This document shows positions 4,358 through 31,155 of a stretch of DNA of 64,000 nucleotides, one piece after another. Under the pieces are notes generated by a model, which saw only the letters and a program-made list of their open reading frames with translations, made no database searches and was not told where the DNA came from. The stretch's first letter is position 1. Each line of letters begins with the position of its first letter. Made by a program: the position numbers and the translations under genes. Source of the DNA: Trileptium ribeirensis (Eukaryota > Nematoda > Enoplea > Enoplida > Thoracostomopsidae); assembly GCA_030248225.1 (NCBI GenBank), contig JASANE010028178.1:62001-126000 (forward strand). Direction: 5' to 3'.

Positions 4358-5114
4358 CAGGGAGTAACCGGAATTCCGGTTCCGACGATAATCGTGTTCC
4401 GATCGCGGTTCCGGCAAAGGGCAAAAACCATACCGGAACTGGAATTCTGGTTTAAAATATTTTGTCAGAAATTTTCCATATTTTTACTTCATCTGAGGTC
4501 CAAAAATTATGTAATATGTACGCAATGACCAAGTACCAATATAACCAAGCAGAAGAAACGATTAACTCAGCAATTTGCCATGTGAAACGCAAGTGGGGCA
4601 CATAAATTCAGTAGGATTTTTCATCTTAGCCTGCAGGAGTTTGCTAACAAAACAAAGCCAGATCGATGCCTATTAGCTGTAAGCTTGGCTAAAATAAATT
4701 GCGCCAAGCACAAGCCACTGCGCTTGCAAACTTTGTAAATCCGTCTATATTGACGTAAACTAGCGTTATCTGCAACGCAGCCAGAAACTGCGTCCTTGGC
4801 AATGAACTGTGTCCATTGAAACTGTGCGAGCAGTATAACAGTTGATCTCATTTATAGCATTGTGATTAGAAAGTTATCATCATTATCATCTAAACGCTAG
4901 CCAAAACAGTGTCATTGACTACTGATCAGAAAATTATAGTATATTATATTTTCTATTATTTTATCTTAGAACCATATAAACCAATAATGTTAAGTTTCCT
5001 ACTGAATAACATGTAACAAACGTATGTGTAGTAAAGGAAGGCGACTGGAAACATTTGCGAAAGTGTTTCTTCTACAGAGCGAAAGTGTTTATTCTACGCT
5101 CCATGCGTTATAAG

Positions 5115-6275
5115 CAGGGAGTAACCGGAATTCCGGTTCCGGCGAAAATCGTGTTCCGGTTGCGGTTCCGGCAAAGGGCAAAAACCATACCGGAACCAGA
5201 ATTCCGGTTTAAAAATTTTGTTTGAAATTTTCCACATTTTTTGCTTCATCCTGTAAACCAAACATATGTAATATATATTATACAATGATGAAGCTCCAAT
5301 ACAACCAAGCAAAAGAAAAGATTAACTAACCAATTTGCCGTGTGAAACGTAAGTAGGGCACATAATTTGAACAGGAATCTTTCATAATAACCTGCAGCAG
5401 TTTGTTAAATCAAAGCCAGGTCGATGCTTGTAGCAGCTATTTTACACATCCAGAAGTCTGTGGGATACGTTTGGATTAAACCGGTCCAACTCGGTAACAG
5501 AGTATGGCTTACGCAGAAGTACTTAGGGTATGCTTGGCTAACATAAATTGCGTCAAGCAACCGCCAGTGCGCTTGTAAACTGGGTAAATCAATCTAAATT
5601 GAAGTAAACTAACGTTATCTGCAACGCAGCTAGAAACGGCTTTCTTGGCAATGAACTGTATTTATTGAAACTGTGCGAGCAGCATCACAGTGTGTCTCAT
5701 TTATAGCATTCTGATTAGAAAGTTATCATCATTATGATCAAACTGACGGGCACTGTTTGTCCAACGCTAGCCTAAACAGTGTCTCTGACCACTGATCAGA
5801 ACATTACCTTCTATCTATTATTTTCTCTTAGAATCATATAAACCAATAATTTTAGGTTTCCTACAGAAGAACATGCAACAAATGTATATGTGTAGTAAAG
5901 GGAGGCGACTGGAGACAGAGCGAAAGTGATTCTACGCTCCAAGCTTTGTAAGCATATTCGATTTGACGCAGTATATGCAATGGTGTATAGTGGAAGACAT
6001 TTTTTGCTCTGGGTATCCAAAAATCGACATATTTGATCGATAAATAAACATTATTAGCTTCCTCAGTCTCTTTAAAGTTTCAGAAAGGCAATAATACCAT
6101 CGCAAAACATTAAGTTTAATGTAAAAGTTATTTTTAATGCATTTTAAATCCACTATACCTTCATTTCTTCCATCATCTGTTTTACTATATATAAATTTCG
6201 AATACCAGGTTCCGGTTCCGGATCCGGCTTAAATGGACTGTTCCGGTTGCTGGTCCCGGTTCCGGTTATTCCCTG
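5115..6275 (+). mobile_element. inner hAT-like element, copy 1
   Basis: 1161 bp from CAGGGAGTAACCGGAATTCC to GGTTCCGGTTATTCCCTG, giving terminal inverted repeats CAGGGA(G/A)TAACCGGAA. It is flanked by a perfect 8-bp duplication, GTTATAAG at 5107-5114 and 6276-6283. The target is the outer copy itself, which reads straight on when the insert is skipped (compare the uninterrupted order near 10060-10130). Non-coding. Confidence 0.85.
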
Positions 6276-6313
6276 GTTATAAGCACATTCATTTTGACAA
6301 CATACGCAAGGGG

Positions 6314-7472
6314 CAGGGAGTAACCGGAATTCCGGTTCCGGCGAAAATCGTGTTCCGGTTGCGGTTCCGGCAAAGGGCAAAAACCATACCGGAACCAGAA
6401 TTCCGGTTTAAAAATTTTGTTTGAAATTTTCCACATTTTTTGCTTCATCCTGTAAACCAAACATATGTAATATATATTATACAATGATCAAGCTCCAATA
6501 CAACCAAGCAAAAGAAAAGATTAACTAACCAATTTGCCGTGTGAAACGTAAGTAGGGCACATAATTTGAGCAGGAATCTTTCATAATAACCTGCAGCAGT
6601 TTGTTAAATCAAAACCAGGTCGATGCTTGTAGCAGCTATTTTACACATCCAGAAGTCTGTGGGATACGTTTGGATTAAACCGGTCCAACTCGGTAACAGA
6701 GTATGGCTTACGCAGAAGTACTTAGGGTATGCTTGGCTAACAAATTGCGTCAAGCAACCGCCAGTGCGCTTGTAAACTGGGTAAATCAATCTAAATTGAA
6801 GTAAACTAACGTTATCTGCAACGCAGCTAGAAACGGCTTTCTTGGCAATGAACTGTATTTATTGAAACTGTGCGAGCAGCATCACAGTGTGTCTCATTTA
6901 TAGCATTCTGATTAGAAAGTTATCATCATTATGATCTAACTGACGGGCACTGTTTGTCCAACGCTAGCCTAAACAGTGTCTCTGACCACTGATCAGAACA
7001 TTACCTTCTATCTATTATTTTCTCTTAGAATCATATAAACCAATAATTTTAAGTTTCCTACAGAAGAACATGCAACAAATGTATATGTGTAGTAAAGGAA
7101 GGCGACTGGAGACAGAGCGAAAGTGATTCTACGCTCCAAGCTTTGTAAGCATATTCGATTTGACGCAGTATATGCAATGGTGTATAGTGGAAGGCATTTT
7201 TTGCTCTGGGTATCCAAAAATCGACATATTTGATCGATAAATAAACATTATTAGCTTCCTCAGTCTCTTTAAAGTTTCAGAAAGGCAATAATACCATCGC
7301 AAAACATTAAGTTTAATGTAAAAGTTATTTTTAATGCATTTTAAATCCACTATACCTTCATTTCTTCCATCATCTGTTTTACTAGATATAAATTTCGAAG
7401 ACCAGGTTCCGGTTCCGGATCCGGCTTAAATGGACTGTTCCGATTGCTGGTTCCGGTTCCGGTTATTCCCTG
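6314..7472 (+). mobile_element. inner hAT-like element, hybrid copy
   Basis: Same ends as copy 1. Its left flank is GCAAGGGG (6306-6313) but its right flank is GGTATAAG (7473-7480), so the flanks do not match each other. They match instead the left flank of the last copy and, with one change, the right flank of copy 1. This is what an unequal crossover between two nested insertions would leave. The 38-bp spacer 6276-6313 recurs at 7473-7510. Confidence 0.75.
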
Positions 7473-7510
7473 GGTATAAGCACATTCATTTTGACAACAT
7501 ACGCAAGGGG

Positions 7511-8647
7511 CAGGGAGTAACCAGAATTCCGGTTCCGGCGAAAATCGTGTTCCGGTTGCGGTTCCGGCAAAGGGCAAAAACCATACCGGAACCAGAATTC
7601 CGGTTTAAAAATTTTGTTTGAAATTTTCCACATTTTTTGCTTCATCCTGTAAACCAAACATATGTAATATATATTATACAATGATCAAGCTCCAATACAA
7701 CCAAGCAAAAGAAAAGATTAACTAACCAATTTGCCGTGTGAAACGTAAGTAGGGCACATAATTTGAGCAGGAATCTTTCATAATAACCTGCAGCAGTTTG
7801 TTAAATCAAAGCCAGGTCGATGCTTGTAGCAGCTATTTTACACATCCAGAAGTCTGTGGGATACGTTTGGATTAAACCGGTCCAACTCGGTAACAGAGTA
7901 TGGCTTACGCAGAAGTACTTAGGGTATGCTTGGTTAACATAAATTGCGTCAAGCACCCGCCAGTGCGCTTGTAAACTTGGTAAATCAGTCTAAATTGAAG
8001 TAAACTAACGTTATCTGCAACGCAGCTAGAAACTACTTTCTTGGCAAAGGAACTGTATTTATTGAAACTGTGCGAGCAGCATCACAGTGTGTCTCATTTA
8101 TAACATTCTGATTGGAAAGTTATCATTGTGATCTAACTGACGGGCACTGTTTGTCCAACGCTAGCCTAAACAGTGTCTCTGACCACTGATCAGAAAATTA
8201 AATTCTATCTATTATTTTCTTTTAGAATCATATAAATCAATAATTTTAAGTTTCCTACAGAAGAAATAAACAAAAGTAAGGGTAGGCGACTGGAGACAGA
8301 GCGAAAGTGTGTATTCTACGCTCCAAGCTTTGTAAGCACATTCGATTTGACGCAGTATACGCAATGGTGTATAGTTGAACACATTTTTTGCTCTGAATGT
8401 CCAAAAACCGACATATTTGATCGATAAATAAACATTATTAGCTTCCTCAGTCTCTTTAAAGTTTCAGAAAGGCAATAATACCATCGCAATACATTAAGTT
8501 TAATGGAAAAGTTATTTTTAATGCATTTTAAATCCACTATACCTTAATTTCGTCCATCATCTGTTTTACTATATATAAATTTCGAAGACCAGATTCCGGT
8601 TCCGGTTTAGATGAACCTTTCCGGTTACTGGTTCCGGTTATTCCCTG
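7511..8647 (+). mobile_element. inner hAT-like element, copy 3
   Basis: Starts CAGGGAGTAACCAGAATTCC at 7511 and ends …GGTTATTCCCTG at 8647. Right flank GCAAGGGG at 8648-8655 equals the left flanks at 6306-6313 and 7503-7510, giving an 8-bp duplication. Downstream, outer-element sequence resumes (GTACAGTGGAAGGCA…). Non-coding. Confidence 0.8.
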
Positions 8648-12213: not shown

Positions 12214-12336
12214 TTACGGCGAAATCGGCAGGTGACGCAAAAAAATTATCCGTGACGCCCACGAACATCGCTGGCCGTCGAAACTGTGACGGGCGCTGTT
12301 AACTCCGCAGTTGATGATCACGATTTGATGATCCAT
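12214..12336 (-). pseudogene. continuation of the BEL/Pao NADAR-SGNH ORF (SGNH block III)
   Basis: Reading inward on the minus strand from the edge of the giant LTR, 40 codons contain IVIINCGVNS. This fits SGNH-hydrolase block III (G-x-N) and lines up with IVILGGF and VIIIGGY of the two giant-element copies at the same spot. The codon phase equals that of the truncated ORF at 44554-45279, and the ATG touching the LTR on this side (12334-12336) duplicates the ATG touching the LTR on the other (44554-44556). The frame stops at 12214; the rest of the SGNH fold is not readable and may be lost to decay. Confidence 0.65.
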
Positions 12337-15300
12337 TGTACTAGGACCAGTTCTGGCCCTAAGGGATCCCAGCTGCACCACTCTATCTAGAACTTCACGG
12401 TGGTGCCCGGACAACCCCGGCTTACACGATTCCCCGGTGGACTCTGGTCTGACCGATGGGAACCGGTTAGCTTAGTAGGCCGCCCGCGGGTTTACCAGGG
12501 TGTTCGGCCTGGCCCCTATGATGGCCACGTGTCTAGGGGTATGGAGGTCCCCCTGAGGGAGGATCATCCCCTAAGCCTGCTCACAGGTAATAAGGCTGAC
12601 CCGTCATTCCCTCTGATTCTGTTGTTATGGAGAGAGGTGCGTTTGGTTTGTCTTAGTGCAACCTAAGGCTGGACACACTGAGCCCACTCGGTCCTATATA
12701 TGTATAAATATTCGGGAGCACGGAGGGACGTTAGCTTTACGAAAGCTAAACACTTGTATCTAGGATCATTGGTAACGAGGGACGGACGGGGTGCGGTTGC
12801 GCGCAGAGTTGGGGAGCGCTATGGGTCGGCAAACTCGGTCGCAGTTGAGCCACTGCACTTGGTATGGACGCAGCAGAAATTTAACTTTAGTAGCTCCGAC
12901 GCAGAGACTTGGGCGGGGAGCGGGGAGGGCAGCGGGCAACAGCAGGGTGAGAGCGAGCAGCACGGGGGACGGCGTGCAGGAGGCGGACCGAGAGCTTAGG
13001 TCGAACAACGTGGAATACCGTGGTGGGACCATGCATTTTGCTTAGAACAGCGGGTCCTGGTTTAAATCAATCTAATTCGCCTACTAAAATTTACACGCAA
13101 AATCTTTATTCTTTGGTTTCCCTCTTCCTTGACACAACAAAACAAGAGTACTCAAAACGTAACTATCACCCACTTGGGTGTACACGAGACTGATACTATG
13201 TACATCATAACTGAGCTTGGATCCAAAACCACGCAAGCAGCTCCCAACTCAAACTGTGCCTCTGCAAGCATTTTAAAACGGCCAACTTCGCTGCAATTCC
13301 CATTGGATGACGAAACGGTTCTTGTGAGCTCCAGTGGGGCTCTTTTCGAAATGCGGAACCCTCAACCCGAAATTTGTTACTAAGGTCTAAAGCCTTCTAT
13401 TTACCGTCACGTTGCTCCTATTTGCTTCAGCTACCGTTTGCGATCCTGACCTAAACCCTCCTTAGAATCGTCCTATTCGAATCGCAGAAGCGCGGGCGCG
13501 ATACTTACGGGAGCACGAGGTGTCCAACGGACACCCCAGCACCCGCAAGGGCCGCCCCTATTCCTAGGCCTAAGCGAGAAAATTTTTTAAAAACTCCGCG
13601 AGATGCCTCGGGTGGGCCTCTTCCACCCGTCCGCTATGGAAAAGTCTACCCGAGCCAAACACACTTCTCCGGATTTTCGATGCCCAAATTTTGTTCCGAT
13701 CGTGCTATCTCACCAGTAAAAATTTTTTAAACCGTGCAGACTCTAAATCACTATTACCAGTAACCGAAAATTTTGCGGCCAACTGAATACAAAAACTGAA
13801 CACTGCGAAACAGTACACCCACTGGGCGTCCACACCGGACTCTACCCAGCGGGCGGGGAACCAGTCGAGTTCGGGGCCCTTCCCCCTTCTCTGGTTGAGA
13901 TTTATTCCCGCACTTTTTTACCCAGCAATTTTCGTCCCCACCGAATTACAACCGCGGAAGCGTAGGCACGGCACTTACGGGAGCGCGAGATATCCAACGG
14001 ACATCCCAGCACCCGCAAGGGCTGTCCTTTATCCTAAGCTCAAACGAAAATTTCAAAAACTGCGAAAAGCCCCGGGCGGACCTCTTCCAAGCGTCTGCAG
14101 GTCGAAGAGTCCACCCGGGCTAGAGAAACAAACAAGCGAAAGAGAAAAGAAAACCTAAAGCGTGCAAACTACGGCGACAACCGCCGTCAAACTCCAGGCT
14201 TAAAATGCTCGACTGGTCCCGCATTGCTGGACGGGCCATTTCTTTTATACCCCGACTTGCAGGCCTGAAATGGCTCGGTCTCGCTCGCTCCCGAGTCTAA
14301 CTGCAAAAAGCTTAAACTTCCAAAGCGTAAATTCTACACACATATATATGGCAACTTTTCAAAATTAAATGACGGCCAAATATACATCCATAATACAAAA
14401 CACGTTGGCATACGTATATTGGCACAACAACAACCGACGAGCTGCAACTCTACTAAACATTGCCATCGTTCACGGGTATGTAGACAGCGGCAGCTCACTG
14501 TGGGCAGTGGCCGAAAGTTGCCACAAAAACAAAACCGCCCGCTGGTCGGCGCGGCAAAAATATTAAGAGGAATTATAACGGCGCTCAGGGCACCGTTTGC
14601 TCATAGGGATATCGGCACATTTTTGCCGATATCTCGTGAACGAAGAGCAGCAGGCGGTCGGGCGCAGGACCAGAATCATGCCCTGGCAGACCGGCTGCTG
14701 ATGAAAATTTGAAATTTAGAGTATCTCTTATAAGAGGCCCGATAGAGGCCGATTTAGGCGAGCCAAAATGAAAATTTTGGGGTCCCATTTAAGTTTATAG
14801 GATCCCGAGCGGACCCGCGAGGGTGGGCGGCCCCGGTTTCGGATTAAACAGTTAGGGGAGAACCCGTTAAGTGTCCCGGGCTCCAGAACTCGGGAAGTTA
14901 TGATTATTTTGGGTGTCCTTTTAGGCTGAGAAAATCGGAGGCTTAAGCGCCTGTTTGGGGACCCCTAAGTATTTAGGGGATCCGAATTTTTAGACCCACT
15001 GGGGCAATTTGACACCCCAGTAGAGTCCTTAAGAGGGTTCAGTCACCCCAGTCCCCCTAAAATTTGTAGAAAACCCAAAAATTGAATTTTTAGTGTTGCA
15101 CCCTAAAATGATGCTTTAGAAATTTTTGTATCCTGAGGTGCTCTATTTCAGTTCGCCTAGGCCGAGGAGTTCGATCACCGACAAATTTCTTGAGCTCGTC
15201 CTAGTATTCTTAGACCACATATAATGCATAAATACACCATATATAAACGAGTATAAACGCACCGCAGATATTAGGTGATAATGATCCCTCGGCGTGTGCG

Positions 15301-15739
15301 CCGGTATCAGGCCGTAGGCGACCATTTTTCTGGAATGCCCAAAATTTCTGTAATATCCATCGGTCCCTCCCCTCCCCGAACGCACACCTTCGCACAATTA
15401 CAACATCATGTATAATATAATGCACAAACGTTTTGTATACACAGTACAGCATCAATTTATTTCCCGAGGATCGACCGGACACCCCTACTAGTGGTACTTG
15501 TTTTCCGTTTTCGGTGCCTAAATCACCCCGGGCACCTTCGGGCGGTGGAGTACGACCTCACAGATACAATACAAGGATATACAATTGCTTATTTTTACAA
15601 CAAATACAATGTTACATAATTATCAATCCCTATAGAGGCCACACTCCGCTGGTATCCGGTCGTCCCTTTCCCTTGTTCCCTATAAATTTGTTGTTCTTTA
15701 CGCGTTTTGTTATACTTTCCTAAAAATTGAGCTGGTACA
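12337..15739 (-). repeat. 3' LTR of the giant element
   Basis: 3403 bp, TG…CA ends in either direction. It contains no coding sequence. Inside is a diverged direct duplication about 471 bp apart: the block starting ACTTACGGGAGC at 13503 and again at 13974, each followed by CCAACGGACA and CCCGCAAGGGC. The segment 15590-15720 is AT-rich. Differences from the 5' LTR are scattered substitutions and small indels, a few percent by eye. Confidence 0.9.
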
Positions 15740-16688: not shown

Positions 16689-18022
16689 CTATCCTCTTGC
16701 AGAGCCGTCCTCGCTGTACTTTCGCGCATTTAGTACAGCCCTCAATGCGTTAAAGCGTCCTAACTCGGCGTCCCTAACTAAACGGCTTACCCACTCATGC
16801 AAGTTCCGCCGACAGTAGTGCGATACCATCGGCTCGTCAAACTGTGGTCTTTCTTGCCATTCCATGTGTGGCTCGTCCCGTTCCCAAGCGTCTGCACTGT
16901 GGAACGCGACCGGCCAGGAAGGCATGTAAACGTTGTGGATGGTGTCATGCTGCCGTCGATGGTTTTAGCCATGAGTTGTTTGAGCTCGGCCGTCCATGAT
17001 AAAGCGTCCTGATTTGTGGCAGCCCATCGGGGTGCCGGTGGCGTTATAACGATGGCGGTATTGACTGCAACTCGGCGGGAGAGTACGCCTAAGTGCCGCT
17101 TGAATTTACGAAAGGCGGCGTTCGGCAAGGACGCGTGGAGCTGCTCCATTGGTGCCTTGCGGTAGATGTATTGGAACCCGCCAAGTATAACGATGCAGCT
17201 GGTCTGCGGGGTTAGGATCGCGTGGGCCAACTGCAGTAAACGTACCATTGTGGACCCCGGCCATTCGTTGACGATCCACTTGTTTTCAGTGGCCATTTCT
17301 AAGATCGGTAATGCCAGGGCGTCACCCACTATTATTGTTTTGGGCCAACGAGCGTGACCGGTAGCACGGTAATCCCGTACTTCCTCGAGTAATCTGCCCA
17401 TGACGTTGTGGCAGCGCGTCGGGGCCTCATGCTGCTGCAGCTGTTGATTGGTGCGCCCGACGCCGCAGAAACTGTCCGTGGTGGCCTCCAACAGCTGTTG
17501 ATCGTCCGTGAGTCCCAAGATTCGCCCATGTTCTGGTATGGCGAATTTGCTGAGCAATATTGGCCGCATGATGTGCTCGAGAAGCGGCTTAAGACGGGCC
17601 TGGGTAACACCGTCAATGAGCTCGTTCTTGAGTTCTCGAGCTCGCGTTTTGAGCTGCAGCGGGGTGCCGGTCATGAGTAACAGTTCTCGGACGGCGTCGG
17701 TCAGTTCCAGCAGTGAGAGCACCTGCACTTGATAGTGTTTCTCGACGGTCGACAAAGTGTTGCCGTCGTGCGCGAATGGGGTTGGTGCCTCGTGCATATT
17801 CGATAATTTCGGCCACTCGGTACCGTGGGATAGAAATGCCACGTATGGCTTGGTTAAATCCACGCGGTAGGTCGGGATCGCCGGAAGCTGGAACCAAGTC
17901 GACTCTGGTGGGGCGAATGGCCCACTCACCGATACGCGTCCGCTGGATCGCCTCCGAGTCTGCTCGGCTTCGTCGCTGCGTAGCGGTTGCGAGGTGTTGG
18001 CCATCTGCAAGAATAAACTCAA
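16689..18022 (-). pseudogene. NADAR-SGNH accessory protein, copy A (one frameshift)
   Basis: N-terminal half (about residues 45-225) has the NADAR/YbiA layout: FLSHGTEWP, then a DG…STVEKHYQVQ motif with its conserved Glu, then IMRPILLSKF, then LLEATTDSFCGVG and NVMGRLLEEVR. NADAR proteins belong to the ADP-ribose N-glycosidase family. The second half (about residues 230-345) looks SGNH-hydrolase-like: IIVGDALALPIL at block I and SCIVILGGFQYIY at block III, but the nucleophile Ser of GDS is replaced (GDA). The main frame ends at 16787; near 16926 a one-base shift moves the conserved C-terminus (MPSWPVAFHSADAWER…) into another frame that ends at 16689. Translation may begin at the ATG of MANTSQ (about 18004), directly after TTATTCTTGCAG, a good splice acceptor. 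It sits 176 bp downstream of its paralogue. Confidence 0.75.
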
Positions 18023-18198
18023 ATAAATACTCGGGATGTCGTTGCGTAGGGTCGCTCTCTTCCGCTAGTCGCTCGCTGGTTAGCTCCTTATACTCTGCCC
18101 TACCTACGCATTGCCCTGTAGCTGCTACTCTGCGCGGTAGTCTTACTCCCCTAAAACAACCACTTCTCTCGCCCCTTTTCGGGTGGATTAGTACGGCC

Positions 18199-19449
18199 TT
18201 ACTCGTGCCAGGGCTCAGCCTGATTATATAGGTGGGCTTTACCCATGCGCCAAAACATGTCAGTGCGCCGGATTAGTTCTTCGGTCCAGTCGCATAGTTG
18301 TGGCCAGAACGGCGGCGAGACCACTGGCTCGGGCCATCGTTGGCGTTCCTCGAGTCGATTAAACGGACCGATTGCGTCCCAGGCCTCGATTCCGCTCAGT
18401 GCTGCTGGCCACTTTGGCATGATGACGCTCATGAGCGCCTGGTGCCCGTCCACCATTCGCGTTATCCGTTCAGTCAGTTCGTCGGACCACGCTGCACTGT
18501 TGACCCTGAAGTCGTCCCAGTGTGGTGCCGGTCCGGTGATAACAACGGCCGAGTCTGCCCGGAGACGTTGCTCGAGCACCATTAAGTGGCGCTTAATCCG
18601 CTTGAGGTAGGCGCCGGGCGAGCACGCCTTGTTTGGTAGATGCCAAACGTCCCGGTAGCCGCCGATGATAATAACGCAGTCCGTTTGGTGCGTCAGGAAT
18701 GCGTTTGCCCATTGGATCAACGAAATCATGTTGAGCCCAGGCCACACGAAAGTTATTCTATTGTGGTCGTCGGCCACATCCAGCAGGGGCAAGGCGCGTT
18801 CGTCACCGACAATGATGGGCCGCTGCCACCGCACGAAACGGTCGCGGTGGAACGATCGAATGTCGCAAAGCAGATGGCCCAGTACATTGTGGTGCGCCGG
18901 TTGATCTGCACCGCACTCGCTCCAGTGGACACCTGTGCCCCAGAAGTTGTCGAAGGTGTCGCTGAGGAGCGGCTTATGGCCCGAATCGTACAGCTCATCC
19001 CAGTAGTCGAGGTCCTGGAATTTCACCAGAAGGATTGGGCGCATGACGTGCAGCTGGTACGACCGGAGGCACCGTCGGGTGTTGGCCGGCAGCGTGCGGA
19101 GGAGGGCTACGCTGCGTAGTTTGACCTCCGTCGGCGACATTCGCTGGTCGAGCATGTGGGCGATCACCGAAACGAAGCCCAATAAGTCCAAGATCGTTAT
19201 GTAGAAATGTTCGGTGGCGCTGCCGAGCTGGCGGCCATTATGTTTAAAACCACCATGCAAATAATGTTCGTTCGCCAGCGTGGTCCGGTTGGATCGTTTG
19301 AGTTCGACCGCGTCCCAGAAGCGTGAGGTGCTCATGTGGCTTCGGGGAACGGCCGGGTAGCGGTGTCCATCGCACACTGCAGGCCCGTGTAGTACTCCTT
19401 GTGGGAGTCGGGGCGCACGGAGATCGTTTTGGCTGTAGCTGCGACGCAT
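18199..19449 (-). CDS. NADAR-SGNH accessory protein, copy B (intact)
   Basis: 416 residues, open throughout. The NADAR-like half carries GSATEHFYITI (the Glu-containing motif), HVMRPILLVKFQD, then LLSDTFDNFWGTG, the family's D-x-x-W-G-x-G signature, and HNVLGHLLCDIR. The SGNH-like half carries RPIIVGDERALPLLDV, an IQWANAFL helix and DCVIIIGGYRDVW, then AVVITGPAPHW. Block I reads GDE and block III GGY, so a Ser nucleophile is not where it should be. The ATG follows CTTCCTTCATTTTAG immediately, a splice-acceptor-like sequence, suggesting expression from a spliced subgenomic RNA as for retroviral env genes. Function is inferred: reversal of nucleic-acid or protein ADP-ribosylation by the first domain, ligand binding or dead hydrolase by the second. 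Confidence 0.8.
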   Translation of the reverse strand: MRRSYSQNDLRAPRLPQGVLHGPAVCDGHRYPAVPRSHMSTSRFWDAVELKRSNRTTLANEHYLHGGFKHNGRQLGSATEHFYITILDLLGFVSVIAHMLDQRMSPTEVKLRSVALLRTLPANTRRCLRSYQLHVMRPILLVKFQDLDYWDELYDSGHKPLLSDTFDNFWGTGVHWSECGADQPAHHNVLGHLLCDIRSFHRDRFVRWQRPIIVGDERALPLLDVADDHNRITFVWPGLNMISLIQWANAFLTHQTDCVIIIGGYRDVWHLPNKACSPGAYLKRIKRHLMVLEQRLRADSAVVITGPAPHWDDFRVNSAAWSDELTERITRMVDGHQALMSVIMPKWPAALSGIEAWDAIGPFNRLEERQRWPEPVVSPPFWPQLCDWTEELIRRTDMFWRMGKAHLYNQAEPWHE

Positions 19450-19583
19450 CTAAAATGAAGGAAGCACTAGTAACTTTACATAGTACGGATGAAAATTAGG
19501 TCTGCCTTAACTTTCATCCTTGTTCTGGGTTTTGAGGGGGGATTGGGTTCTACCTCGGAGTACTTGCCGTTGTGCTGGGTAGT

Positions 19584-21533
19584 TTAGTCCACTTGCGGGT
19601 CCGGCTCGTCGGACTCGGATTCCTCATGGGGTGGTGGTCGAGGTACGCGCTGTCGCCAAGCGGCGGGGTGAAATTCTTGGCTAGAGGGGTAGCGTGGTAA
19701 TGTGGTGGGCGGTAGAGGTCCGCCTGGAGAGCGTTTGCCCATCAAAAGTGGTCTTGGGGTCAGTATTGGCGCGCTAGTCATTGAGGTAGTGGCAATGGTG
19801 GCTTGGGCGCGTGTAGCAGAAGCTAGCCTGGTTGAGGTTCCGGCAGTCTCAGCAGTGGTGGTTTCTGGTTCCTGAAAGGTCACACGTCTAGGCCTGCGTA
19901 GGGCGTCCTCTACTTCCTCGTCCGATGCTGCGCCATATGGCCTAAAGACCCGGTCTCTAGCCTGTCGATGCAAAAGGTGTCTGGTTGGGACCGTTGCATG
20001 GGTGGTACTAAGTCGTATTATTCCCGAAGACGTCGTAGTGGCAGTGGTGCGTACCAATTCAGTAATGGTCACTGTGGATGGTCCCGGTTGTTCGGTGCTT
20101 GTAAACTGAATAGTTGAACCGCCTCGGGCCGATGCAATTTGTTTCCGTTGGGTGGTCCGTCCGACAAGGCCCTTCCCTCGCTCTTCTGGCGGTGCTCGCG
20201 GGCTCCTTTGTTCGCTCGGCGGTGCTCGAGTGCGAGGAGGGGTACCTAGTGTCACTGCAAGCCCAGTTCCTCTCCGAGGCGCTGGTGTTTCGCTGCTTGA
20301 ACTAGCAAGTGTGAATTCACTAAATGAGTCAGAGGCTCCCGGTTGGGTGGTAGGCGTCCTAGAATCACTGCTTGATGTTCCTAGTCCTGCCTGGCCATGT
20401 CGCTCGGCCGAGGATGGTTCCTGTGAAGTTTGGCTGGTCAATTCGTCGTCTGCTTCAGCTGCTCTTACGTCTACTGTCGTGCCCTCTCCGGAGGTCTCCG
20501 ACAAATAACTGGACATTGGTGACCCTAGAGGTGGCTGGGTCATGGGTGCCTCGCGAAAGACCCGCTGGTGAGGAGACATAGGCCTGTCAGCGGCTGCTGG
20601 TGGAGCGCTATAAGGACGCATTGTTGTATAATCTCCTACGGTCTGAGTTGACATTTCCATTGGTACCCGCAATCGCGATGCCATGATGTGTTCAGCTGGT
20701 CGCGATTGGAATAGTGGGTGGTCCTGCGCAGCGAGCATGATTGCGTAGCGTAGATCCCCTGAGGTGTATGGTCCCGGTACTACGATTCCGCCTGAAGCAC
20801 CGCGTGGCGTGGTGGACAGAGTGATGTCCGCTGGGTAGAAGTGTTGTCCCTCAAGTATTCCAACACCTACTGTCGGTACGCCAAACGGGACTTCCTCACT
20901 GGTAGCCACTATTCTTTCCATCGTGGTCACTGGCACTGTATGTTGTCCGTACTGTACCTGCGTGTCTCGGCTACCAGGTTCTGGTATGTATGAGAAGGCC
21001 TCCTGGCTAGTAACCTGTTCCTGCGCTATTGGTGGCCAGGAAGGTTCTATTTCCCTGTCCGGATCAGTCAGGGGAATTCGGTTCCTGACCGTCCTTGGAT
21101 TTTGGGGTTCGTAGTCGTCCGTCCGATACTCGATATGTTCCATTGCTGCTTGCTCGCCTTCGATCTCAGCGTAGGTCCGGCGATATAAATTAGGGTCGTT
21201 AGGGTCACCCATCTCTATACTTTCCATATCAGAACTATCACTGACTGCTGTTCTTACGGTGCGTACTGCTACTTCGTCTACAGGTTCTATCTCGGTGACG
21301 AAATCCCTATCAGCGATAATGCGTTGGGTTGCTTCAGTTAGACCTCGCTCTAGCACGGAAGTGTGTACCTGCCCTAACCAATCTCCTACATTGGGTACTG
21401 GGTCTAATGCGGCGTTCACGCTATAATGTCCCCGCTGTTTGGAACTTTTGACCCCTGTAGTCGCGACCCTACCGTATATACAGTCAGGGTGACACCCATA
21501 CTGTATATCAAATGCCGAGGGTGTACGGCACAC
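19584..21533 (-). CDS. 649-residue Ser/Thr/Pro-rich disordered protein of the giant element
   Basis: An uninterrupted frame of 649 codons rich in Ser, Thr, Pro, Arg and Glu, with stretches such as SSSETPAPRRGTG and PPEERGKGLVGRTTQRKQ. It has no recognisable fold, no membrane segment and no cysteine pattern. It begins after a stop with GTG, and the first in-frame ATG is about 100 codons in, so the true start may come from splicing or from fusion with upstream pol. A 2.5-kb DNA transposon abuts its 5' end and may have cut it off. Position between integrase and the NADAR-SGNH genes suggests an accessory or structural role. Codon phase stays open over nearly 2 kb, unlike pol, which argues for recent function. 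Confidence 0.65.
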   Translation of the reverse strand: MCRTPSAFDIQYGCHPDCIYGRVATTGVKSSKQRGHYSVNAALDPVPNVGDWLGQVHTSVLERGLTEATQRIIADRDFVTEIEPVDEVAVRTVRTAVSDSSDMESIEMGDPNDPNLYRRTYAEIEGEQAAMEHIEYRTDDYEPQNPRTVRNRIPLTDPDREIEPSWPPIAQEQVTSQEAFSYIPEPGSRDTQVQYGQHTVPVTTMERIVATSEEVPFGVPTVGVGILEGQHFYPADITLSTTPRGASGGIVVPGPYTSGDLRYAIMLAAQDHPLFQSRPAEHIMASRLRVPMEMSTQTVGDYTTMRPYSAPPAAADRPMSPHQRVFREAPMTQPPLGSPMSSYLSETSGEGTTVDVRAAEADDELTSQTSQEPSSAERHGQAGLGTSSSDSRTPTTQPGASDSFSEFTLASSSSETPAPRRGTGLAVTLGTPPRTRAPPSEQRSPRAPPEERGKGLVGRTTQRKQIASARGGSTIQFTSTEQPGPSTVTITELVRTTATTTSSGIIRLSTTHATVPTRHLLHRQARDRVFRPYGAASDEEVEDALRRPRRVTFQEPETTTAETAGTSTRLASATRAQATIATTSMTSAPILTPRPLLMGKRSPGGPLPPTTLPRYPSSQEFHPAAWRQRVPRPPPHEESESDEPDPQVD

Positions 21534-21578
21534 CCTTAGCTACTACATTTTTTCTAGACAGTGTCGTACACACCCTTA

Positions 21579-24084
21579 GCTACCGATTTGGCGCGAATTA
21601 ATGCATGGTTCACAGAAATATGAGTGCACGAACTGCACACCGAAAGCAATTGCAACGACAATATTGCACGAAAACACCATTGCAATGACGTTATGTTATT
21701 ATGTTACATGGTATGATTAATAGCACGCGCAAGCAATATTGCTGCTGCAATAATGTTGTGTCACATTGCATTGAAGCAAACCATCTCGTTTATTGTTGCG
21801 GCAACACCCTATTCTATTTGTTATAACACCAACAATATATTTCTTGCAAATATAGTTGCGATAACAGCTGTTCCGTAGCATGGGCGAGAATAGAATACAT
21901 TGGCGTTTTAGCGGCTGCAAGTTAAACTGGCACAATAAACTTACATCGCAAGCGAAGTAAAACGGAGACATAGTTTTATCATCTATAGTTGTCATTTGTG
22001 TTTGATTTATATACGAGCCAGAGACCTGAAGAACCCTTGAAGCCTTTATAAAGATGCTCTGTTACAAATTAAGGTACTCCAGATTTATACATAACGAAAA
22101 ATCTATCATTGCTAATATGAGGCCCAGAACACAACACATACCGAATAAATAACAATACCGAAATTCTTTCAGTAAATCGGGTTCGCCAACAGTCGACTTC
22201 TAACTATTTCAAACCCCCTAGAAAATATGGTACAGTCGTGTTGGGTTCTAGATGGCGACCCGATAGTATTCGATGTATCTAAACCCTATATATCCGTGCG
22301 CAATTTAATTAAAGCAATTATAACCAAATAACTGAAGGCAGACTATTGGGTTTGTCGATCATTAGCCTGGAAGATAAATTATATTTCAAATGCAAATTCC
22401 GAAATTCTGCTATATATAGTTATCGTCTATAGAAAATATATATATCGAGATTTGTCCAGAAATTTTGACTATTTTGCTGAATGTAATGTTGCGGAATGCT
22501 GCAACAGAACATTCACCATAAAGAAGCATTGGTATGTACGTGGATGTGTACGTCACATGCTGTGCCTAATATGTTCGCGTTATATATACCTAAGGATGTA
22601 ATTTTAATAATTTCTGTACATGTTATATCCGTAAGGTCGTCTTGGTACACCCAAAATGAAATAGTTACTCACTATTTACAACGGCTGTTGTAATTGTTCT
22701 CTATATATACATAGGTTGTCCATAATGTTGCACAAATTGCGAGGAAAATAAGGCGATAGAGCATTGCCGTTTCAGTTATTGACTTTACAATTAACCTTTT
22801 GTTTAAATGTTACCACTTTAAAATATGTTTTTGCACAGACTTGCAGGCAAACAATTTCACAATTTAATAGCAATACAATACAACAATTTATTAGTAAACA
22901 CTTGTTCAATATAACGCTACCGAGGCAAATGCGTAAATTAGTTGAAAGGAATTTCTTGTTAAATTTGTTCTATGTGATAAACTTTAATGTTAACGACAGC
23001 GCATTGATAGAAGCGAATAATTTAAAACGTAACATTTCGGTATAGCGGTTAATGGAAAGTCATTGGCAATTCGTACCAGCAGAATTATCAGTTATGATAT
23101 ATTCAGCACACACATATTTGACAATTAACCATAATATAAAAATAAAATAAAACATAAAACACGACTGGTTATTCTCTTTGTCACGAGAGTAATGTAGTAG
23201 GTAGTGTTTTAGGATAGCTACATATCCCTGGAACTCAACCCCTTTGAAAATTTCATGCTTCTGTGGTTTTTAACTTAATGCTACAGTTTGTTGTATCTAT
23301 GATTATACATGTTTTCGAGGTGGTTGAAAGCGATGAGATGGTTCTTTCAAACATCGCTGTCTATAAACGTAATTATGAGACTCGCTGTGCAATCATGGAG
23401 TTACCAAAATTCTAGTTATATTTATTCGTTATCCATATCGTTGGGTAGACTATTATTTTATTCATGGTATAAGATGGGTTCCCATTGTTGAAGCGAAATA
23501 ATGCTAAACTCAGTGGTCTCAGCGTGTATCTAATTATGAGCGTTATGACATTATTCATTCTTTCAGTTCAGTAACTGCAACAATGTCATTTCCTAATTCA
23601 GTATCATGTCCCTATAAAATAGCCAGAAAAGGATATTGCTGCACATAAAACTGTAACCATATCGTGAAATGTTTCTGACGTCGTAACAATAGTCATAGAA
23701 GCAGCATGCTGCAGCAATATGTGATGCATAAACTTATAGTTACAGTAGCTATATTGCAAATAATTCTCCATTGTCGCACCATGCTTCAGAATAATTATTG
23801 TAGCAACAATATTTGAAAGCAACGTATTGTTGCTACAATAGCAAATAGCAGCCTTTTGACGCAACAATAACGCGATGATGTTACTGCAATACAATATAAG
23901 TCAACGATATTGCAGCAGCAATATTGCTAGTGCATGATATTGTCGATACCATGTTATATAATAACATAATGCCATGGCAATGGTGTTTTGGTACGATATT
24001 GTTGTCGCAATAGCTTACGGTGTGCAGTTCGTGCACGCACTTCTCTGTGAACCATGCATAACTATAACGCACACCGTCTGTAGC
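21579..24084. mobile_element. 2.5-kb DNA transposon with long inverted ends, TA-flanked
   Basis: About 21579-21770 and the reverse complement of 23890-24084 are diverged copies of one another, sharing ATGCATGGTTCACAG, TGCACGAACTGCACACCG, AAAACACCATTGC and TTGCTGCTGCAATA. The match runs out to GCTAC…/…GTAGC with TA on both outer sides (21577-21578, 24085-24086), which would fit a TA target duplication. Subterminal short repeats based on GCAATATTGCTGC are frequent. The 1.9 kb between the arms is AT-rich with no transposase-like ORF. It lies between integrase and the 649-residue ORF of the giant element. Exact ends are uncertain. Confidence 0.65.
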
Positions 24085-24250
24085 TAATGCGGTTTATTAG
24101 TCAACTGTCCTGTGGAGTTTTTCCTAAATTCTCCATATTTGTATCTAGCCCATATGAACACTGCTCAAATAATTCCGAACACTGTCAATAAAACTGCCAG
24201 AAGACACGGTGTGCCTGACACTGTCGGTAAGCGGTAATACGCGTAACTAG

Positions 24251-27200
24251 CTACCGTTGAAAAAATTTATTGAAAACATGGGGGTGTCTAAGACACCCTG
24301 TTGTCAACAGTGTGTCTGACACTGTGTGGGGTACATAGGTTCCAAACGTTGGGGACATTATAACGTGAACGCCGCATAATGCCCTAAAACATGGTTTGGT
24401 TCTATTAATGTGCACGACATGCGCCATACCTTCTGGATTAGAATGCATCTGTACGCGCATGCATGGCGGGGTGTCCCTAGTATTTCGTATGGTCCACACC
24501 ATCGAGGCGTGAGCTTTCTAGATGTTCCTGGCGTGGTGTCGTGCCTATAAACCCAACTAATTCTCCGGTGTGATAGCGTGGTTCGCGAGCTCGCCTATCG
24601 TACCTTAGCCGATTTAATTCTTGGGCGGCTTTCATTGACTGGTATGCACGTTCCCTAATAGAAGCCGTCCAGCGCTGCGCGTTGGCCCTGTAGGAATGTG
24701 CTCCTGTGTATCCGGTGGTTGCACTATGCGTGTCATATTCTCCGGGCAACCTTGGGTAAAATCCGTGCATTAGCAAAAATGGTGGGTATTTTGTCGCTGT
24801 GTGTACCGAGGAGTTATAGGCCATTATGCAAAATGGTAGGGATACATCCCATGAGTGGTGATCATCCTGTGGTATACTCACTCGTAACTAGTATAGGAGG
24901 GTCCTATTGAATCTTTCAATTTCACCGTTTGCCTGAGGGTGATAAGCTAGACACATGTGCCGAAATATTTGCATTTCCTGGCACAGCTCTTCGAACATGT
25001 GTGCTGTAAAGGCACCTCCTCTGTCAGAATATAGCTCCCTGGGAGCTCCGTACCTATTGACTACCTCATATAGGAATATATGGGCAGCTGTATGAGCAGC
25101 CTGGTGCCTTATTGGCACTGCTATTGCAAATTTTGTAAACTGGTCTATGAATGCAATGACATAGCGATTGCCTGCCTGCGACCTAACTTGAATATCCAGT
25201 ATGTCCACAAATACACGATACATTGGTTGATTTGCCAACGGAACCCTACCCAGCCCGGTGGTTATCCGAGAAATGGGGTCCTTCGCGGACTGGCATAGAG
25301 TGCACCGCCTGATCCATTGTTGTACGTGTTCGGACATACCTTTCCAATAGTAAAACTGCTTTAGTTTAGCTATAAGCCGGTCGCGGCCAGGATGCCCTCC
25401 ATATAAGGTATTGTGTTCGTGTTTGAGCATTTGTTGTACGAGCGTGATAGGGACGCATAACTTATAATTTATGTCTCCGGGTTGTAACGGATGCATGTAT
25501 AGTATTTTGGTATCCGCGGCTAAATTCAAAATAGTGTGCCCGCATTTCAATTCTTAGCGCCCCCAATTCGGCTTTAGGCCGAGTTTTGTTGTATAAATAC
25601 CACCAAATTGGACCCAACTCCGGGTCGTTTCGCTGGATATATGGTAAGAGGCGCACTAGACTAAAATCTGGGAGGTCCGAGAAGAAAGGCAGATATATAT
25701 TTTCGTGGGTGTCCTGTGCGTCCAAAATTCGGACGGTTGGTAGTATCTCGGTTTCATAGTGCATCATCAATTTCATGAGCCTATCAAACTCTTGTTCGGT
25801 TGGTAATGTGGTTGCTCTTAGGCCCATTGTTTCCGATTCGGTGCGAAATGGTCTTTTGGGTCCTCGAGCCTGAGGTCTGCCTTCAGAACTCGAGATAGTG
25901 GTTGTGCGGACCGACATCACGGGGGTTTCTCCTGAACCCATTCTAATTGGGATGGCACTTAGCGTGGCGGCTTGCTCGGTCAGCGCGGCTGGTGGTACTG
26001 TGGCTGCTTGTGTGTCAGCGACTAATTGTGATGGGATTGCTTCAGGATTAGGTTGGCCTGGGGGATCTATGGGGCTTCCTATTATAGGAGTTGGCGCGCC
26101 CGTTGCAAGCGGTGTGACAGTGCGTACGGGGTACGGCAAGTGCGATTGGTCCCATGCTGCGCAGGTTGTTGGAGGGCGAGGTCCAGTGGGTCGTCCTCGT
26201 CCCATCATGAGGAATTCATACGTATCTCCTAGTTCTTCACCTACAGACGGATCGTATCTAGGATCGCGTGATAGGGCATCCGCATTGCCATTTTCCTTGC
26301 CTGGTCTATACAATATCTCGAATCCCCAAACTCAAGCAATAGCTCACTGCGCCTTTGAGATAGGCGTGAATTTCTGGGTGGTTTATCGAATAGGGTTTTG
26401 AGTGGCTTGTGGTCGGTTTCAACGTGAAACTTGTGCCCCATGAGGTAATGCTTGAAATGCAGTGCGGCCCACCTAATAGCGAGAGCTTCAGTTTCTATTG
26501 CGGGATACCTGCGTTGATAATCAAGGAGGGCCTTGCTAGCGTATGCAATGGGTTTAATTCCTTGCTTGGTTTTCTGAGGCAACACTGCACCCATAGCATA
26601 TCCCGAAGCGTCCGTTTGCAGGATAAACGGTTGCGTGAAATCAGGGTGAATCAAGACCGGTTCATCTAACAATGCTTGTTTTAATTTCTTGAAGGCTTCC
26701 TCGCACCTAGGGGTCCATTTGAATTCTGTATCCTTACGTTTTAATTCATTCAATGGTTCACAGATGTCCGAATAATTTTAGATAAATTTGTGGTAATAAC
26801 CTACAAGCCCTAAGAAACTTTGGAGTTGTTTCAACGTCTCCGGACGTTTAAATTCTTCTATGGCTATTGCCTTTTCTGGGTCTGGTTTGACACCTTCGAT
26901 GCTAATTATGTGTCCTAAGTATTTGAGGCTGCCTCGTCCGAAGTGACATTTTGAGGGTTTGAGTTTTAAGTTCGCCTTACGGAAACGATCGAAAACCCGA
27001 ATCAAGTCTGCCAGATGGGCTTCGAATGACGGTGAGAAAACTAGGATGTCATCGATGTATATTAGACATTTTTCCCACTCAAGTCCTTTCAAAATCATTG
27101 ACATGCAGCGTTGAAAGGCTCCGGGAGATGAATTTAGACCGAACGGGAGGACGTTATACTCATACTGCCCGTGCACCGTCACAAAAGATGTTTTGTCCTT

Positions 27201-28748
27201 GGTCTCGGGGTCTAATTCTAACTGCCAAAATCCCTTGTTTAGGTCCAAACTGGACATTAGTTTTGTATTCCTGAGGCATCCTAGTATGTCATCTATGCGT
27301 GGCAGTGGATACGCGTCCTGCTCTGCTACCGTGTTGACCTTCCGGAAGTCTACACAGAGTCGGAGAGAGCCATCGCTCTTGGTTACATACACTATCGGAG
27401 ATCCCCAAGGAGAACTCGATGGGGCTATAAGGCCTGCGTCTGACATGCTGTTCAGTTCTTCCCTAAGCGGTTCGCGTAATGAATGCGCTAATCGATACGG
27501 TGCTTGTTTGATCGGTTTTGCATCCCCTGTTTCTATGCGGTAGCGGTGTTCGGTGTATCGTCCCAGGTCAAAATCATGGGTGCTGAATACGTCTGCATTT
27601 TCAGCAATTGCGGTTTTCAGTTGTTTTAGTTCGAAAGGCGATAATAGTGTCCTGTCGAAATCTATTTTACTCAATACGGTTTGAGCCCGTTCATGATCAA
27701 TGGAGCGTTTTCCTGCCTCGATGTGTTCGATAATCCTCTCGGGGTGGGTAGTGATATGGTTTAGTTGTTTAGCCTCCTTATGTTCCTCGTATCGTCTCAA
27801 ATTCTGATTCGTATCCTTAAGGAATTGTATTGTGGGATTGCTCATGACCTCTATGTGCCCGATAGTTTGTCCTGAGTATATGGTGACCGGTGTGTTACCG
27901 AAATTGATTACTGCGATTGGTATAGTCCGCTGACTCCTAAGCACCAATGCATGTGCCATTGCGATATCCGTCATTTCGGGAGCGGGGACAAATAGAGCGG
28001 GTCCTACGCCTGTGTCAGCAATTTCGGGGATAGCGTTGATAAACGTTTCTGTATTTGGTTCGATGGTAGTGAGCTTTCTGCACATCACCGCTATTAAGGG
28101 TGGGTCATAGCGCTCTAAACCTGCGAAGGGTATTTTGGCATCTTCTTCGTCTATGCCGATTTCTAAACAGCGCTCGCGAAAATTTATGATGCATTTTGAC
28201 AGTTGCGACAAGAAATTTGTTCCTAAGATGCAATGGTACGGAGCGGTTTGGGTAACGAAGAATTCCGTCTGCACCTTAATAGGTCCAATTGATAAGGGTA
28301 CACTTATGCTACCGTCCAGTGCTAATTTCTGTTTGGTAGCCGATACTATCCGCGTTGAGTCGTCTGGGCGGGGCTGAAGGCCTAGCTTGTTTACTAGATG
28401 TTGTGATACGATAGAGACGTCCGCGCCTGTATCGATCAACGTGATGACTGGTGTCCGGTAGCTAAAAGCGTTGATGAGCAACGGTGCGTCTATGTGGTGC
28501 ATGGCATTGACTTGTCGGTGGTAAGATACGGTGTGATGTCCCCTACGTTGCGCACGCTCGGATACTGCAAATAGTTCCGTAGGTTCCACCAGAACAACGT
28601 CCTCGTCCTCATTGGGGTTGTTTAGTCGAGCCGATCGACGAGGGCTCAATGTCCGCAATTCCAGGTGTTCCGTGGAAGCGGCTGGAGCTGAGATCGTAGG
28701 CCGAACTGCATCTGGATTACCATACTCGTTTCCAGTTTTGATGTTCAA
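24251..28748 (-). pseudogene. pol: aspartic protease, reverse transcriptase, RNase H, integrase (broken)
   Basis: Order is typical of Ty3/gypsy. Protease: LIDTGADVSIV with a distal ILGTNFL. RT: DGSLRLCVDFRKVN, LDLNKGFWQLELD, VLPFGLNSSP, LIYIDDILVFS. RNase H: ILQTDASGYAMGAVL, ETEAL and TDHKPL. Then a Pro-rich linker of about 200 residues, unusual in length, and integrase with the HHCC finger (H…H…CTLC), VDILDIQ, ELYSDRGGAF and NGEIER as the DDE triad. Breaks: an in-frame TAA at 26778-26780, frameshifts near 26.32 kb, 25.55 kb and 24.50 kb, and an in-frame TAG at 24888-24890. The first frame opens after a stop near 28790 without an ATG, so it is probably made as part of a longer product or from a spliced RNA. 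Dead in this copy. Confidence 0.93.
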
Positions 28749-28855: not shown

Positions 28856-31155
28856 TTATTCCCCTATGCCCACAATTACTAGCACAACGAGCATCCAAAG
28901 GTAAGGAGCTACTCCCGTTGTCGTAATGTATGGGAAGTCGATCACCTTCTTCAACTGCTCGTCAGCTATTTGTTGGACTTGTAGGTTGGTGGCCTTGGCA
29001 TGTTCCAATGAGCTCCAGGTAATGGGCCTAAGAGGAATATCTGGAAAGTCATGTATGGTGATGTTAGGTCCAATGTGAACGGTGACCTCCTGAGCGTCTA
29101 ATATGCTGGCAAGCATTAGTGGTCCGACCACTAGTTGGGTGTAATTGCTGTGAGACAACCATAAGACTCCATCTTCTGGAATCATAATGGTTTCTCCGCG
29201 CGTAACATGGCTGAGGTGCTTTTGCTTGGAGACCACTGCTTTAGGCTCGGCGGTTCGAATTAGTACTCCTTGCGCGGTGGTGTACACGTCGGTATGATTA
29301 ACCATTGGTCCGACCAACGCGCTGTTCTTGCATATGCGGCGCGTGTCATCGGGTGCGTCTTCGCCCATTATGATCCAGTCCAAACAGCGTGAAGAATGGT
29401 CGGTGGCCAAAGCGTGAACTTCGCAGAAAGTAATGCCGGGTCGCGTGTTGCATGCGTGCAAGTTCAGCACCTCATATCGTGCCTGTCAACTCGGGTAGCG
29501 TATTCCGGCAGGGGTAATCTCATATGCGCGCGACGCTCCGGTACGTTCCAACCAACGTTGTCTATCCGAAAATAAGGCCGGAAGTCGTCCGACGTAACTA
29601 GCGGTACTCTCAAAATGAATGCAAATTTGAACGTGCCCAGGTCAATGTGTACTGGGTAAATTTGCCCAAACTGGTAGGCTAGCGCCGGTTCGCGTATTAG
29701 TATGGTCTGCCCTATTCTTGGATCCTTTTCGAATAGACGCTTTAGTTTCGCGGCATCCACTACCTTGGGTGATAACTGCCCGCTCATCATGGCTTCCATG
29801 ACGGCGTCGACAGAAGAGCGCAGACTAGTGCGAAACATATGGTTTACCAATTCGCGGTGTACCTCGGTCACGTAGCGTTGTTCCTGACACCTAACCTGTT
29901 CGATCATAACAACCACTTCCTGCATCTCATGGTGCAAGAAAGAGTAAAGCTCCTCGTTAGCGCGTGTTAACTTCAAGATTGCTCGCGAGTTACCCTGGGC
30001 AACACTATAAGTGTTTCGCATTTCTTTAGACACTGCTATTACCTGTTTATTTAAGTCCTTTAGATGCAACGCATTCGTGAAGGCTACTCCTACTCCTAGA
30101 AATCCTGTAACTACGCCAGCAGCTCCAGCTAGGGCAGCGAGAAATCTTTTCTTCCGAGCCCTAGGCTCCTCGCAGAAATGAACGTTCGCTTCGCAATATT
30201 CGCGCATTAGAGCCATATAATAACTTGTATCTAGCACACCCTGATATGTGCTCCTTAATTCTCGTTCCAGCTCTTGGATTTTACGTTGTAAGTCCGGCAT
30301 GGTAGTACAATTCGGGTTGGGACAACAGTCTCCCAGACATGGTTTACCCCTGGGGGTGTAGACACACCACGCCATACCGGTTGCTTGCCTGCTCGGTTGT
30401 AACCCATCTAGGGACAATCGCAAAACGATCGGTAGAAAAGTGGATCGCGCGGCGGTTATTACCAGACCCTGTGGTTCGATAAACGTACCCACTTGTTGGT
30501 TAACCATAGCTCCTAAGCGTGCTACCTGGTCCGAAAATGGCGTGGCTATGGCCTGGGCTTGACCCATTTGTTGGACGACAAGCAAGAAAAGCATTATTCC
30601 CACAAATCTGATCCCTTGGCTCCACAATTCCGCAGCTGCTGCATATTGTCGACTTAGTCTATTTGAGAAGGGCCGTACCGACCTGGTCAGTATTTCTTGG
30701 CCACTCTCACTTGCGTCAACATACGGTTCGTCTTCGAGATTGTCCGGGAGTGAGTCGAGTTCGGAAACCACGTCGTCCGAGTCGAGCGTCGCGATAGCGG
30801 ACATGTTAAATTCGTCTTCACTCATGTCAGTGGGCGCTGTACTCAACTCTCTCTCGAGCTCCTCCTCGTCGATGAATGTTACGTCTGCGTCCGGGTTGAC
30901 AATCGAGCCTGCGTCCATGTCGTCGTCCGGATCAGTTTGCCAGATATTTTGTGCGGGCTGACGCAACCATAATAGTCTCAGGTATAGCAGTTTTTCGCAT
31001 TTCTGCACACTGTCAACTTGCTTAAAAATAGCATTCGCTATGACTGCATATACGATGTGGTCAATTGACAGCACCGGTGGAATGGGACCGGATTCGTCAT
31101 ATTCAGTAACAAGTAGTCCAGCAAGTACGGTGCACTGGTCACAGTTTCTAACCAT
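28856..31155 (-). pseudogene. Env-like class I fusion glycoprotein, placed upstream of pol
   Basis: Two overlapping frames (31155-29464 and 29470-28856) offset by one base near 29470 look like one broken gene. In order: an acidic N-terminal region of about 165 residues, a hydrophobic signal-like segment near residues 180-200 ending in AQA, a Cys-rich patch, a heptad-like helix, a tetrabasic RKKR site, a Gly/Ala-rich hydrophobic segment like a fusion peptide, and a long coiled-coil region. The second frame adds several Cys, three N-x-T/S sites and a terminal membrane anchor with almost no cytoplasmic tail. This is the architecture of class I fusion proteins of gypsy/errantivirus-type elements; I cannot assign a closer family. 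The location before pol is abnormal, since env normally follows integrase. Confidence 0.75.

Follow-up and report, generated by a model that had tools for sequence, protein, structure and literature searches.

The 64,000-nucleotide stretch of DNA analysed here (the window; positions 62,001 to 126,000 of the forward strand of contig JASANE010028178.1, assembly GCA_030248225.1, of the enoplid nematode Trileptium ribeirensis) carries a giant retrotransposon with long terminal repeats (LTRs), in which two tandem minus-strand open reading frames (ORFs) each predict a NADAR (YbiA-like) half followed by a half that probably has an SGNH-like fold. Alignments place changes at enzyme-defining residues of both halves while the remainder of the two proteins appears to have stayed constrained, and we favour, at about an even chance of being right, the reading that the ORFs encode non-catalytic accessory proteins made from separate, perhaps spliced, messenger RNAs (mRNAs). 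A preliminary description of the window, drawn from its letters alone, had put two tandem ORFs between the integrase and the 3' LTR as cargo of an LTR retroelement, and both points hold: the ORFs lie where it put them, the 3' LTR being at 12337-15739, and a pair of 3.4-kb LTRs encloses pol and both ORFs.

The upstream ORF (18199-19449, minus strand) has 416 codons, with the NADAR part at about residues 67-203 and the SGNH-like part at about residues 207-345. The downstream ORF (16787-18022, minus strand) has 411 codons counted from a TTG, and an ATG at 18004 is its likelier start. In a pairwise alignment the two proteins are 32% identical across 313 residues (E 2e-52), and on that resemblance they are diverged paralogues; because the NADAR and SGNH-like motifs quoted in the preliminary description are present in the ORFs and the proteins match at this level, a resemblance by chance is excluded. 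The downstream ORF shifts frame near residue 355; the remainder of its C-terminal part is read in a different frame, which runs from 16964 to the stop codon at 16689-16691, the point at which the previously reported interval (from 16689) begins. This continuation (16692-16964, minus strand) matches the C-terminal end of the upstream protein collinearly, at 30% identity. We describe this frame break as found and have not mended it; it is either real or an assembly error.

Profile matches from Pfam, NCBIfam and PHROGs bear out the proposed NADAR half, weakly in the case of the upstream ORF. The downstream ORF matches Pfam PF08719 with E 3.7e-10 and 40.7 bits, above the cut-off of 35.1, and the upstream ORF with E 7.3e-05 and 23.5 bits, under it. 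Matches to NCBIfam TIGR02464 (1.8e-12 downstream, 5.8e-4 upstream) are both under that model's strict 73.7-bit cut-off, and those to PHROG 1017 are 2.4e-12 and 6.4e-4, respectively. A YbiA-family profile built in this analysis from YbiA and 19 bacterial relatives (from 23 loci fetched) aligned with the ORF pair at an hhalign probability of 96.3, spanning residues 63-219 of the downstream protein. By these matches the NADAR identity of the downstream ORF is safe, and that of the upstream ORF is likely, because it is a clear paralogue of the downstream ORF and has matches in all three libraries.

Which catalytic residues do these NADAR halves retain? In the NADARs that have been studied, an acidic residue (E43 in the Phytophthora protein, E88 in E. 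coli C7) and an acidic residue of the last strand (E125, D171) are functionally important, a lysine (K50 in Phytophthora, K95 in the E. coli C7 NADAR) is essential for efficient hydrolysis, and the pyrophosphate is held by K50, R79, W89, R93, W133 and D130 (PMC11543638). These positions were mapped by placing YbiA and the Phytophthora chain in register and then aligning the YbiA-family profile to the ORF pair. The column of the essential lysine holds Val101 in the downstream protein and Ile86 in the upstream protein (Leu87 if the glutamate motif is shifted by one), and the W89 column has a tryptophan in neither. The first acidic column (E43/E88) holds E94 downstream and Thr79, with an adjoining Glu80, upstream; the last-strand acidic column (E125) holds E179 downstream and Ser163, with Asp164 next to it, upstream. 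Aspartate occupies the D130 column in both (D183 downstream, D167 upstream), and the W133 column is Cys186 downstream and Trp170 upstream. In this register each NADAR half retains part of the active site, and the lysine is present in neither.

The C-terminal halves have no match among Pfam, NCBIfam or PHROG profiles. Their predicted structure matches GDSL/SGNH-type acylhydrolases, although the mean predicted local distance difference test score (pLDDT) of the model is only 46.7, and a profile of this half gave one PDB match, a GDSL lipase at E 0.2 (177,635 sequences, E up to 10). The SGNH half proposed earlier is thus probable but short of confirmed, having fold matches of a low-confidence model and one marginal lipase match but no match to a library profile. 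The block I serine (GDS) is replaced in both proteins, by GDA (A235) in one and GDE (E217) in the other. The glycine of block III (GxND) is retained in both, and the asparagine column holds Gln284 and Arg266 in the register given by the marginal GDSL-lipase alignment (E 0.2). The block V histidine has no confident location, the region having pLDDT <50 and containing the frame break of one ORF.

A codon comparison of the paralogues over the stretch that is in frame in both, which is a comparison of one gene pair within one element copy, gave a proportion of synonymous differences (pS) of 0.74, which is saturated, and a proportion of nonsynonymous differences (pN) of 0.47; this indicates constraint on the proteins after the genes duplicated. 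By half, pN is 0.38 in the SGNH-like part and 0.55 in the NADAR part, and amino-acid identity is 38.8% (52/134) and 27.3% (44/161), respectively. The SGNH-like half is therefore the better conserved, by its lower pN and higher identity, despite its missing catalytic residues.

The ORFs also carry possible signals of their own expression. Directly before the ATG of the upstream ORF lies a sequence like a 3' splice site (19450-19467, minus strand), a YAG with at least 12 of 15 pyrimidines, and a weaker one (18005-18022, minus strand; YAG, 10/15 pyrimidines) directly precedes the ATG at 18004. With thresholds that were picked after the sites had been seen, the upstream ATG is the sole one of 371 interior minus-strand ATGs to have a YAG and at least 12/15 pyrimidines (1 of 2194 ATGs in the whole window, both strands), and at 10/15 three of the 371 pass, both NADAR-SGNH ORFs among them. 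The minus strand showed no strict donor consensus; a single AG|GTRAG site occurs within the element, at 37117. For rotifer LTR elements, expression of ORF3s by way of spliced messages has been described (PMC5408684). From the acceptor-like sequences we infer that the NADAR-SGNH messages may be spliced, in cis or in trans.

The likeliest job of the two proteins is non-catalytic, since key catalytic residues of both halves have changed. Under the reading that we prefer, each ORF would be translated from its own mRNA, spliced to the acceptor-like sequence abutting its ATG either in cis or by spliced-leader trans-splicing. The NADAR half would keep its core and part of the acidic site, with the phosphate-coordinating lysine and ligand-binding tryptophan gone, and the SGNH half would keep its sheet and the block III glycine, with the nucleophile serine and the asparagine gone. 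The ligand bound by the paired proteins would be a nucleotide, an RNA or a protein, and the two might serve the RNA or ribonucleoprotein of the element as adaptors in processing, export or membrane targeting; alternatively, they may be decoys for a host signal of ADP-ribose type.

Both kinds of degeneration have what may, by analogy, be precedents. SL1 trans-splicing in nematodes requires the protein SNA-3, which contains three NADAR domains and whose first one lacks the conserved residues (PMC9303266), and rotifer Athena-L elements carry GDSL derivatives without catalytic residues (PMC5408684), so that a degenerate NADAR in RNA metabolism and a degenerate GDSL protein in a retroelement would each have a counterpart. 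SNA-3 resembles the present proteins as a eukaryotic protein of RNA metabolism with several NADARs, one of which lacks the conserved residues, but it differs in being a nematode-specific host trans-splicing factor for which the available part of PMC9303266 mentions no SGNH domain. It also supplies a point that weighs against a non-catalytic role, in that mutation of conserved residues in its second or third NADAR impairs SNA-3 (PMC9303266). A more specific version of our reading, which we consider quite unlikely in this detailed form, is a two-gene pseudoenzyme system whose paired proteins would bind their ligands and leave them uncleaved. These ligands would be marks derived from ADP-ribose or NAD, or else RNA with a cap or a leader, and by binding them the proteins would sense or protect the RNA of the element or take over splicing by the host, as a counterpart of SNA-3.

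It is rather unlikely, in our estimate, that the SGNH half leads, in a membrane or ribonucleoprotein role like that of the rotifer GDSL ORF3s or of the esterase ORF1s of CR1-type long interspersed nuclear elements (LINEs), with the NADAR as an RNA-side module. The stronger conservation of the SGNH half speaks for such a role, as does the occurrence of GDSL ORF3s in rotifer Vesta LTR elements (PMC5408684), but the catalytic serine and asparagine positions are changed and the proteins are therefore probably not esterases; moreover, neither a membrane feature nor a coiled coil was shown, and the hydrophobic peak at residues 82-100 of the upstream protein falls inside the NADAR.

The preliminary description had suggested enzymes that remove ADP-ribose, and active de-ADP-ribosylases could counter a host defence that ADP-ribosylates the RNA or DNA of the element or that signals via ADP-ribose derivatives. 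NADARs do reverse ADP-ribosylation of guanosine on DNA (PMC11543638) and on RNA (PMC11833690), and the downstream protein retains both acidic positions (E94 and E179) and D183. The residue equivalent to the lysine essential in E. coli C7 is, however, valine in one protein and isoleucine or leucine in the other, neither has a tryptophan at W89, W133 is a cysteine downstream and E125 is a serine upstream. Because the lysine is missing, catalytic counter-defence would need an unusual NADAR; with a hydrophobic residue in its place in both proteins and the W89 tryptophan absent from both, active removal of ADP-ribose is unsupported, and we judge this explanation unlikely.

Still less probable are passenger genes, which would stem from a single capture of host or viral sequence followed by duplication and would now be in decay without use. 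The frameshift in one ORF, the loss of active-site residues from both proteins and the stops and frameshifts in this copy's gag and env region would all suit decay, but a pN of 0.47 against the saturated pS of 0.74 speaks for constraint since the duplication, and the upstream ORF is open across 416 codons. That the ORFs are host genes or another repeat inserted into the element is highly improbable: the element does carry other rearrangements (the inverted repeat at 21400-24384, below), but the ORFs stand in tandem on the strand of pol, within the LTR pair and about 0.95 kb from the 3' LTR, and no repeat boundaries of their own were found around them within the window.

The carrier element measures 32.2 kb in total, with an interior of 25.4 kb, and by its LTR pair and its order of protease, reverse transcriptase, RNase H and integrase it is of Ty3/gypsy type. 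Self-comparison delimited the 5' LTR (41156-44553, minus strand; 3.4 kb, TGTACC...AGTACA) and the 3' LTR (12337-15739, minus strand; 3.4 kb), which are 96.6% identical and have TG...CA ends (Kimura two-parameter distance 0.029 over 3390 aligned columns). A candidate 3-bp target-site duplication, CAT (ATG on the minus strand), at 44554-44556 and 12334-12336 is weak on its 3 bp alone. When the 60-base flanks are joined with one ATG copy removed, an open frame reads through IVIINCGVN, and because this reading frame is uninterrupted both the insertion and the boundaries assigned to it look genuine. The sequence TGGGGGCT... begins 4 bases past the 5' LTR and is likely the primer-binding site; it was matched to no tRNA. 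In the window as a whole there is no Rfam match at the gathering threshold, and a tRNA scan was empty.

All of the coding parts read from the minus strand. An N-terminal, gag-like fragment (39129-39656) was judged by eye from its translation, with no Pfam match and no CCHC knuckle found. Upstream of pol lie an N-terminal piece of the env region (31038-32075; no Pfam match), an env-like ORF (29464-31155) with an RKKR furin-type site at residue 334 and a hydrophobic, fusion-peptide-like peak at 338-359, and an env-like C-terminal piece (28856-29470) with a hydrophobic, transmembrane-like C-terminal segment and no Pfam match; the env-like ORF has no meaningful Pfam score and no PDB sequence match. 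In this copy, stops and frameshifts interrupt the reading frames of gag and env. Pfam found no extra domain in the gag-env interval (eight of the ten scanned fragments come from the interval, some fragments of which were not scanned), which holds a 27-bp minisatellite of 18.5 copies (32713-33218). In pol, protease and reverse transcriptase (26778-28748; gag-asp_proteas 2.3e-11, RVT_1 8.5e-32) are followed by RNase H (26241-26753; RT_RNaseH_2 9.3e-38), the zinc-binding domain and core of the integrase (24888-25550; Integrase_H2C2 2.2e-19, rve 2.4e-15) and its C-terminal, GPY/SH3-like segment (24361-24594; SH3_Tf2-1 E 0.001, under the cut-off). The relatives of pol are scattered: among 120 listed of 960 proteins, the named ones are plant (mostly Tanacetum), fungal and animal. 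An inverted repeat at 21400-24384, between the integrase and the next ORF, has arms at 21601-21896/23763-24059 and 21400-21455/24329-24384 and an AT-rich core, and is an inverted duplication or an insertion. Between the integrase and the NADAR-SGNH pair, which shares pol's strand and stops some 0.95 kb short of the 3' LTR, lies an intact Ser/Thr/Pro-rich ORF of 649 codons (19584-21533; no Pfam match) that may extend Pol or be one more accessory gene.

The element interrupts an ORF that shares its strand (flanks 44554-45354 and from 12336 downward) and that the joined flanks restore. This interrupted ORF, which is probably another repeat or a gene, shows by eye an SGNH-like LLLSDSQ...IVIINCGVN pattern and has no Pfam match; as a candidate relative of the NADAR-SGNH ORFs it was rejected, having no similarity to the upstream ORF (best E 0.74). 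Elsewhere in the window are degenerate retroelement pieces (46926-53659, minus strand), with an RVT_1 match at 48037-48903 under the cut-off (E 5.3e-06), which may resemble BEL/Pao; a satellite array (57218-64000) with a 279-bp unit in 24.4 copies that runs past the window end; and tandem repeats of about 1.2 kb with 94-97% identity (5114-8639), a related inverted copy of which lies at 1062-1935.

Searches for relatives of the two ORFs were negative. A single-protein search with the downstream ORF gave none at E<=0.01 when the 8000 candidates with the most shared words were scored, and the alignment of both ORFs gave none at E<=0.1 among 5711 candidates. Viral contigs contained 58 stretches that fit a pattern, none of which was confirmed; tblastn of the downstream ORF against phages found no match; and in sequence searches of the PDB the downstream ORF had no match and the upstream ORF had two, both unrelated and at E 0.2.

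In layout the element recalls the giant gypsy-like Burro elements of planarians, which exceed 30 kb in total, have about 25 kb of internal sequence and carry an env-like region between gag and pol (PMC6431247); the likeness covers total and interior length, env-like ORFs between gag and pol and the presence of extra domains of host-interaction type. The likeness is one of layout, set against the published description, and the placement of env and gag here follows motifs and reading by eye, not profiles. The extra Burro domains are MATH/TRAF, BIR, ankyrin, BCL2-like, SUMO-like, dUTPase-like and others, NADAR and SGNH being unnamed in section 7 of PMC6431247, and Burro ORF1 is a single polyprotein of about 4,900 residues, whereas our element has interrupted frames and encodes its NADAR-SGNH proteins in ORFs of their own, 3' to pol. 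NADAR (YbiA) domains are likewise encoded by retroelements in the Pol of Ectocarpus Gypsy elements and in ORF1 of Tx1 LINEs of the oyster Crassostrea gigas (PMC12477816); the NADAR of our element, by contrast, is joined to a second, probably SGNH-like domain, occurs in two copies, and sits in ORFs of its own past the integrase. GDSL/SGNH ORF3s occur in bdelloid Vesta LTR retrotransposons, and GDSL ORFs in Terminons (PMC5408684). Common to these and our element are SGNH-type ORFs in an LTR element (ORF3 in Vesta), and the Athena-L versions lack catalytic residues as here, but the GDSL ORFs of rotifer LTR elements have their invariant residues intact, and the available part of PMC5408684 mentions no NADAR with them. 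Among the matches listed, the open-access literature held no NADAR-SGNH fusion, tandem duplication or active-site loss, and no NADAR in an env-bearing LTR element. The preliminary remark that no retroelement system of this form was known to its author overstated the novelty, as NADAR (PMC12477816) and GDSL (PMC5408684) proteins of retroelements have been published. What appears to be new here is the NADAR-SGNH fusion, its tandem duplication and its active-site loss; NADAR or GDSL cargo of a retroelement was already known.

With this element, NADAR is found in at least three kinds of retroelement, namely brown-algal Gypsy elements, oyster Tx1 LINEs and a giant env-bearing gypsy-type element, which suggests that ADP-ribose-type chemistry, or the handling of RNA by way of the NADAR fold, matters to retroelements. 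The element adds to the giant layout with env between gag and pol and to its habit of gathering host-interaction domains. A protein that has lost key residues while remaining constrained offers a natural test of a non-enzymatic role of NADAR, and, if the pseudoenzyme reading is true, a retroelement would have turned two enzyme folds into paired binding proteins.
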